From: an uncultured Methanobacteriaceae archaeon
Lineage (GTDB): Archaea > Methanobacteriota > Methanobacteria > Methanobacteriales > Methanobacteriaceae
Length of the DNA stretch: 64,000 nt
Direction of reading: 5' to 3'
Assembly (NCBI GenBank): GCA_902782945.1
Contig: CACZOU010000064.1
Span: 1-64,000, forward strand
How positions within the stretch are numbered: the first letter of the stretch is position 1; each line of letters begins with the position of its first letter. The position numbers and the translations under genes were made by a program. The notes beneath the pieces were generated by a model. The model was given only the letters and a program-made list of their open reading frames with translations. It ran no database searches and was not told where the DNA came from. Below, piece by piece: positions 7,189 to 9,218 of the stretch.

Positions 7189-8373
<1,185 letters not shown>

Positions 8374-8964
8374 TATTTCTAGTAATGGATTTGGTTTCTT
8401 GTTTTTCTCTTTCTTCTTATCGTCGTTGGATTTCTCTTCTTTTTTGTTCTTTGGTGGTCTTCCTGGTTTTCTTTTGGTTGTTGTCTTAGTTTCGTCTTCT
8501 TTTTTCTTATTTTTTCTTGGTCTTCCTGGTTTTCGTTTAGGTTTTGTTTCAGTTGTTTCTTTTTTAGGTCTTCCTGGTTTTCTTTTTGTTTCTTTTCTTG
8601 GTCTTCCAGGGCCTCGTTTAACTTCTTTTTCCTGTGTTTTCTTGTTTTTACTTTTTGGTGGTCTTCCTGGTCCTCTTTTCTTTGGTGGTTCTTGTTTTTC
8701 TAGGATTGTTGTTGTATGTTTAGATTCGGTATCTGTGATTGCCTCATCTTTTTTCTTACTAGTTTTTTTGCTTTTTGGTGGTCTTCCCGGTCCTCGTTTT
8801 TTAGTTTTTGGTTTGGTTTGTGTTTTTGGTTTTGTGGTGGGTGTTGGTTTCTCAGTTGTTTCTTTTTTGGATGATTTTTTGTTTTTCTCTGATTTTCGTG
8901 TTTTGTGAGGTCTTCCGTATCTTCTTTTTCTTTTTAGTATGCCTGCCGTTGTTTCATCCTCCTT
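8374..8964 (-). other. In-frame AT-hook-like N-terminal extension of tfb without canonical start
   Basis: These 197 codons are in the tfb frame and contain no stop; the upstream TAA is at 8965-8967. They encode a Lys/Pro/Thr-rich segment with repeats of the type K-R-(G/K)-P-G-R-P-(P/R/K)-K at about 8773-8799, 8653-8679, 8596-8619, 8566-8586, 8515-8538 and 8452-8475, plus a degenerate RYGRPHK near 8908-8925. They resemble AT-hooks, which bind AT-rich minor grooves. No ATG, GTG or TTG occurs in frame. GGAGG at 8958-8962 lies 8 bases before an in-frame ACG (8947-8949). An ATA (8938-8940) overlaps the gar1 stop region. Regular repeats and codon structure indicate real coding sequence. Confidence 0.75.
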
Positions 8965-9218
8965 TTATTATTTCTTGGTGGTAAATATACTTTTTCACCG
9001 GGCTTGGCTTTTCTGTATTTTTTGCTGGTTTTTATTGATAGGTATGGTTTTTTAGTGGATCCGAAGATGTCACTTAGTTTACCTATTGGCTTGTGTTTTT
9101 TGTTTAGTATCGTTGTGCCAATCCGTGGTGTTTGTTTTGACGGTACAATTATTTTGTTTGTGCTTGTTATGTGGCTTATTGTACCTATTTCTTTAAATTT
9201 ATTATCTTTTTTCGTCAT
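8934..9218 (-). CDS. gar1: H/ACA RNP protein Gar1
   Basis: A 94-residue basic protein of the Gar1/Naf1 fold, a component of H/ACA guide RNPs that pseudouridylate rRNA. It has the six-stranded barrel pattern ([15 protein letters not shown], then [23 protein letters not shown] and PYLSIK) and a basic C-terminal tail. Archaeal gar1 is commonly next to tfb, as here. Its last codons contain a perfect GGAGG (8958-8962) and overlap the open tfb frame in a different phase, raising a frameshift or coupled start. ATG at 9218 has only a weak upstream site. Confidence 0.87.

Follow-up and report, generated by a model that had tools for sequence, protein, structure and literature searches.

Our analyses indicate that tfb, which encodes the general transcription factor TFB and is located in a 64,000-nucleotide stretch of DNA from an uncultured gut archaeon of the family Methanobacteriaceae (the window), very probably begins at an ACG codon (positions 8949-8947), and that a rare translation start appears to govern a core transcription factor across an order of methanogenic archaea. 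The tfb frame is open for 197 codons upstream of its first ATG (8373) and contains no ATG, GTG or TTG in that part, as a preliminary description of this DNA had claimed. That description also placed a GGAGG 8 bases before an in-frame ACG at the end of gar1, and the sequence confirms this arrangement (GGAGG at 8962-8958, ACG at 8949-8947, gar1 stop codon at 8936-8934). Among the options that it offered for the missing start (a non-canonical start codon, coupled reinitiation, or a frameshift out of gar1), the first, in the form of the ACG, is strongly supported by the alignment of this codon with an ATG in sister species and by its conservation across genera. On the evidence of the aligned sequences, the position and the conservation of the ACG and the coding of the frame that it would start are demonstrated. 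The coordinates of the features discussed here are collected in Table 1.

Table 1. Features of the tfb-gar1 region of the window
Feature	Positions	Strand	Characteristics
tfb open frame	7189-8964	-	591 codons
tfb as read from the ACG	7189..8949	-	586 aa, 66.6 kDa; NCBIfam NF001658, 541.9 bits
ACG, proposed tfb start codon	8947..8949	-	Aligned with ATG of 7 Methanosphaera species; ACG in 121/134 genomes
Shine-Dalgarno (SD) sequence GGAGG of tfb	8958..8962	-	Register relative to the start codon conserved in the 118 scored ACG loci
First in-frame ATG	8371..8373	-	Alternative start without SD; product 394 aa, 44 kDa
ATG in gar1 frame	8955..8957	-	Directly adjoins the SD; distance too short for a start
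gar1 (H/ACA RNP component)	8934..9218	-	Pfam PF04410, E 7.7e-13; 3' end and tfb start share 16 nt
TFB core: zinc ribbon and two TFIIB cyclin repeats	7192..8082	-	Pfam PF08271, PF00382; PDB TFIIB/TFB matches 1d3u, 1ais, 1pft
N-terminal RYGRPHK, first GRP element	8902..8922	-	G12, R13 and P14 invariant in 15 aligned species
Six AT-hook-like repeats, K-R-(G/K)-P-G-R-P-(P/R/K)	8449..8802	-	GRP cores invariant in alignment
Acidic linker	8095..8394	-	Charge about -28; conserved stretch; short predicted helices

The tfb start in the window

The product of the tfb frame has the domains of an archaeal TFB, viz. a zinc ribbon (PF08271, 71.9 bits) and two stretches matching the cyclin repeats (PF00382, 162.7 bits). 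The product of the upstream gene is matched by the NCBIfam Gar1 models below their cut-off. Translation of TFB would begin at the ACG, which is well spaced behind a strong SD, and the initiator tRNA most likely decodes this codon as Met with the middle base mismatched. A further ATG, lying beside the SD in the gar1 frame, is present in all ACG-type Methanosphaera and missing from those of the ATG type.

TFB could instead begin at ATG 8373, the earliest canonical start in frame, with the upstream frame untranslated or a remnant. We consider this very unlikely, because the part upstream of this ATG is under purifying selection as protein, sister species have a far N-terminal ATG with its own SD, and some genomes of the group lack any canonical start before the zinc ribbon (see below). 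The window sequence also has no SD before ATG 8373, in agreement with the earlier statement that this codon lacks a ribosome-binding site.

The start codon within Methanosphaera

At the start of tfb, seven Methanosphaera species share the arrangement GGAGG-7 nt-ATG-GCA-GG(A/T)-ATT-CTA, and the corresponding sequence of the window species and the remaining relatives is GGAGG-8 nt-ACG-(G/T)C..., with the ACG aligned to the ATG. From this codon onward, the aligned N-terminal peptide reads (M/T)AGILKRK+R(Y/L)GRP in most of the species. A base error that created or removed a normal start, which the preliminary description had named as a way in which its reading could fail, is not the source of the ACG: the window species has been assembled a second time (G002, 2 contigs) with an identical sequence, the ACG is likewise present in the single-contig relative G016, and many species agree. 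The single-contig genome of 1,767,403 bp that carries the ACG is presumably that of M. stadtmanae DSM 3091. Read from the ACG, TFB of M. stadtmanae would have 579 aa; two proteome papers on this species make no mention of TFB in their main text, and a proteome study of it (PMC7776873) used the NCBI annotation as its database. In a tree computed from TFB-core DNA, in which all outgroup genera have ACG, ATG was derived one or two times inside Methanosphaera; on this sequence comparison, ACG is ancestral and ATG is derived.

The start codon across the Methanobacteriales

The 5' regions of tfb from 134 Methanobacteriales-type genomes in 19 genera were scanned for ten near-cognate codons in frame, which were ranked by the strength of the SD at 6-9 nt. 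ACG was the winning codon in 118 of the 134 regions and ATG in 11, the remainder giving ATT or a spurious codon. The codon located 7-8 nt past the tfb SD is ACG in 121/134 (the 118 scored loci and three assigned by eye, viz. L008 and L022, whose frames are broken, and L043, where a chance SD scored higher), ATG in 11/134, ATT in 2/134, and GTG or TTG in 0/134. All bases of the ACG are invariant in the 118 loci while the neighbouring bases vary, an invariance that follows from the selection of the set, so that the real test is the contrast with the ten alternative codons. Because genomes of the same genus are not independent, the 134 genomes do not amount to 134 independent tests, and the argument rests on the spread at the genus level and on the three gar1 settings described below.

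Within 36 of the 118 ACG genomes, no ATG, GTG or TTG is present in frame upstream of the zinc ribbon; these include a 2,937,203-bp contig (L045), which we take to be the genome of M. ruminantium M1. The ACG is also found at the tfb start of a 1,853,160-bp genome (L081), presumably that of M. smithii. The natural replacement of this codon at identical spacing by ATG (G117) and by ATT (G058) identifies this site as the start. ACG makes up 2.0% of the Thr codons in the genome of the window species, and since this codon is rare and a plain Thr would drift to ACA or ACT, its predominance at this site is not that of an ordinary conserved Thr. Support from the Methanobacterium- and Methanothermobacter-like genera is weak, because the ACG, 8 nt past a GGGGG, is followed there by an ATG 4-7 codons on, and gar1 overlaps. 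No earlier report of an ACG start for tfb was found in the open-access literature.

Several genomes of genus g10 contain tfb paralogues that have ATA (L239, L240) or ATC (L241, L242, L248) at the position 8 nt past the SD. Two of these paralogues (L240 and L248) have no ATG, GTG or TTG before the zinc ribbon, and the SD of L248 is weaker, of the GGAG type. Overall, copies of tfb appear from their sequences to use ACG, ATT, ATA, ATC or ATG, and neither GTG nor TTG was seen as a tfb start among the copies compared.

These replacements also bear on the suggestion that the ACG is turned into AUG by C-to-U editing of the mRNA, a process that makes start codons from ACG in plant chloroplasts (PMC9845219). 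A C-to-T change at the ACG would yield exactly the ATG of the sister species, but ATT, ATA and ATC stand for ACG in other tfb copies, for which editing of a C would not account, and editing is therefore highly unlikely. Counting further against it, we know of no C-to-U editing of mRNA in archaea. A special initiator tRNA with the anticodon CGU was sought in 1.2 Mb of G002, where none was found; the tRNA-Thr genes there have the anticodons TGT and GGT, and CAT tRNAs of the ordinary kind occur as well.

Within the same 1.2 Mb, which comprises 670 ORFs with 100 codons or more, ACG stands at the start position behind a strong SD in tfb alone, and two other genes have likely non-canonical starts, ATT and ATA. 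One is an adhesin-like ORF of 1147 codons with a signal peptide (L181 about 6182, minus strand; G002:C1:86182), whose apparent ATT start lies 7 nt past a GGAGG. The second is a radical-SAM-like ORF (ITKTKSLCPECLK...; L227 about 8770, minus strand; G002:C1:1008770) with an apparent ATA or other non-NTG start after GGAGGGGG, its next canonical start being located 87 codons downstream.

Relation of the ACG to gar1

In most genera the 3' end of gar1 and the start of tfb share 16 nt, and the C and G of the ACG are bases 1-2 of an Arg codon of gar1, whose stop codon follows 13-16 nt later. The ACG could consequently be no more than the shadow of an Arg codon that is conserved at the end of gar1, the true start being another codon, e.g. 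an ATA. However, the ACG is kept where gar1 overlaps in another frame (g6, g11, and L025) and where no overlapping ORF is present (L018, most of g8, and all ACG members of g9); in those g8 and g9 loci for which more of the flank was read, gar1 ends 80-320 nt upstream of tfb. Because it is kept under two overlap frames and without overlap, the ACG is not a by-product of gar1. The ATA near the gar1 stop (8940-8938), to which the preliminary description had pointed, is not conserved among relatives. The shadow reading is thus largely refuted and we regard it as exceedingly unlikely. As a control for the SD scan, ACG was the best start of gar1 in 0/110 loci, a weak control since gar1 is mostly without a strong SD.

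The different gar1 settings are equally relevant to a programmed frameshift out of gar1, which would give a Gar1-TFB fusion and for which the 16-nt overlap and a GGAGG able to stimulate frameshifting could speak. Instead of keeping one frame throughout, gar1 changes its frame relative to tfb from lineage to lineage, with the ACG constant, and in two genera it ends upstream of tfb without overlap. In addition, tfb has its own ATG in seven relatives, ATG stands in place of ACG in 11 genomes, and no slippery heptamer was seen by eye in the overlap. The fusion that had been proposed is consequently extremely improbable.

Coupled reinitiation, the remaining option, may contribute to expression in the genomes with overlapping genes, but it need not be invoked. 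Gene pairs expressed by termination-reinitiation share with gar1/tfb the overlap of the two genes, and typical coupled pairs overlap by 1 or 4 nt and have NTG starts (PMC10666635); unlike in such pairs, the gar1/tfb overlap is dispensable, having been lost in g8 and g9, and would in most genera couple the two genes only optionally. Around the tfb start, the two largest genera (g10 and g1) showed no conserved RNA structure that would aid initiation, and in g9, a set of low divergence, a 6-pair structure signal is present near the start.

Significance of a rare start codon in tfb

The ACG start of tfb would be an ancestral trait that is kept by selection in the Methanobacteriales. The strong SD would partly offset the poor codon, leaving an output that is low and that may vary with the stringency of initiation. 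By analogy with bacterial infC (see below), we judge the chances to be about even that the weak start limits TFB synthesis or makes it sensitive to this stringency. The archaeal factor aIF1 disfavours non-canonical starts (PMC8211752), and a more tentative proposal, which we put at somewhat less than an even chance, is that tfb in this order has been selected against AUG, GUG and UUG, its starts being held in the set ACG, AUU, AUA, and AUC, so that TFB synthesis is tied to stringency through the level or activity of aIF1. If so, there would be feedback from the fidelity of translation to global transcription, an archaeal counterpart of the AUU control of infC.

The bacterial gene infC, which encodes IF3 and starts with AUU, resembles tfb in that a rare near-cognate start is kept in a core gene-expression factor. 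The features of infC-like genes with a conserved non-AUG start, viz. a near-cognate codon, its distance from the SD, conservation across species, and alignment with AUG in some relatives, are all found in tfb. According to work cited in PMC9845219, the AUU of Escherichia coli infC limits expression and its change to AUG abolishes autocontrol. The two cases differ in that the infC product is itself the initiation factor that discriminates start codons, whereas TFB is a transcription factor, archaeal, with mostly ACG as its start. ACG start codons are also found in eukaryotes, their viruses, and chloroplasts; those starts use scanning or RNA editing, whereas that of tfb has a strong SD 7-8 nt upstream and is conserved order-wide in archaea.

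If the ACG is the start, TFB would be translated, across an order that includes common gut methanogens, from a conserved codon deemed too weak for ordinary starts, and start-codon choice in archaea would become testable. Gene callers restricted to ATG, GTG, and TTG would truncate TFB in these organisms, with loss of the zinc ribbon in some genomes.

The N-terminal arm and linker of Methanosphaera TFB

The first ~190 codons of the tfb frame are rich in Lys and Arg and encode six K-R-(G/K)-P-G-R-P repeats, in forms including KRGPGRPP (twice) and KRKPGRPP, together with an N-terminal YGRPHK. The array of six AT-hook-like repeats that had been described is thus real, but the GRP cores number seven when the N-terminal element is counted. 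The repeated GRP cores with basic flanks (six to seven in the window TFB) are those of an AT-hook, and since the repeats score 7.5-7.7 bits against the Pfam AT_hook model, whose cut-off is 17.4, the arm is here named AT-hook-like and not filed as a member of that family. Over the 1.2 Mb scanned from the window species, tfb is the only ORF with more than one GRP-type motif.

All 20 Methanosphaera genomes (the genus name being taken from most collection records) have the long tfb frame, either open or in fragments, and every one has 3-7 GRP repeats; of the conservation to be looked for in this genus, that of the repeats holds, but that of the missing start does not, seven species having a normal ATG. 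In one genome (L008, G003) a frameshift lies between the ACG and the AT-hook region, and in another (L022, G004) this part contains Ns; both are probably assembly faults. The coding nature of the extension, earlier argued from its repeats and codon bias, is supported by dN/dS values of 0.05-0.31 before the zinc ribbon in species pairs, as against 0.05 or less in the core, and by differences at the three codon positions of 12448/10548/18701, third positions being the most variable.

The charge layout of the Methanosphaera protein is +54 in the arm and -28 in the linker, followed by the TFB core. In an AlphaFold model of the full TFB the extension is disordered (mean pLDDT 57), with short helices in the linker only, and the predicted disorder of the arm suits AT-hooks. 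That the arm binds AT-rich DNA, as its motif leads one to expect, is in our view somewhat more probable than the contrary. A near-invariant stretch of the acidic linker of Methanosphaera, upstream of the zinc ribbon, is a possible short interaction motif.

The zinc ribbon and two cyclin repeats are common to the window TFB, other archaeal TFBs, and eukaryotic TFIIB, but only Methanosphaera TFB has about 285 added N-terminal residues, made up of the AT-hook-like array and the acidic linker. Repeated basic GRP cores are shared with AT-hook proteins of the HMGA type, and the TFB of one species (L020) carries KRGRGRPK repeats; in contrast to these proteins, the arm usually has PGRP in place of RGRP and is joined to a general transcription factor. 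No earlier report of AT-hooks on an archaeal TFB was found in the open-access literature.

Because the ACG is found order-wide and the AT-hook tail only in Methanosphaera, the comparison indicates that the start is older than the tail and is not tied to it, the tail being a later addition limited to this genus. Methanosphaera would be a lineage of 70% AT genome whose general transcription factor acquired an arm of AT-hook-like repeats, the same start now standing ahead of a young arm, with its acidic linker, that probably tethers TFB to AT-rich DNA. One Methanosphaera genome (G007) has four TFB copies (L017, L023, L026, and L027), and the one paralogue checked (L023) has an ATG start and is without the AT-hook arm. 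Other genera mostly have some 18-75 open codons upstream of the zinc ribbon, except for g11 (L040 and L041), where a long N-terminal extension unrelated to the AT-hook tail, consisting of Lys/Thr repeats in L040 and acidic in L041, is also located behind an ACG.
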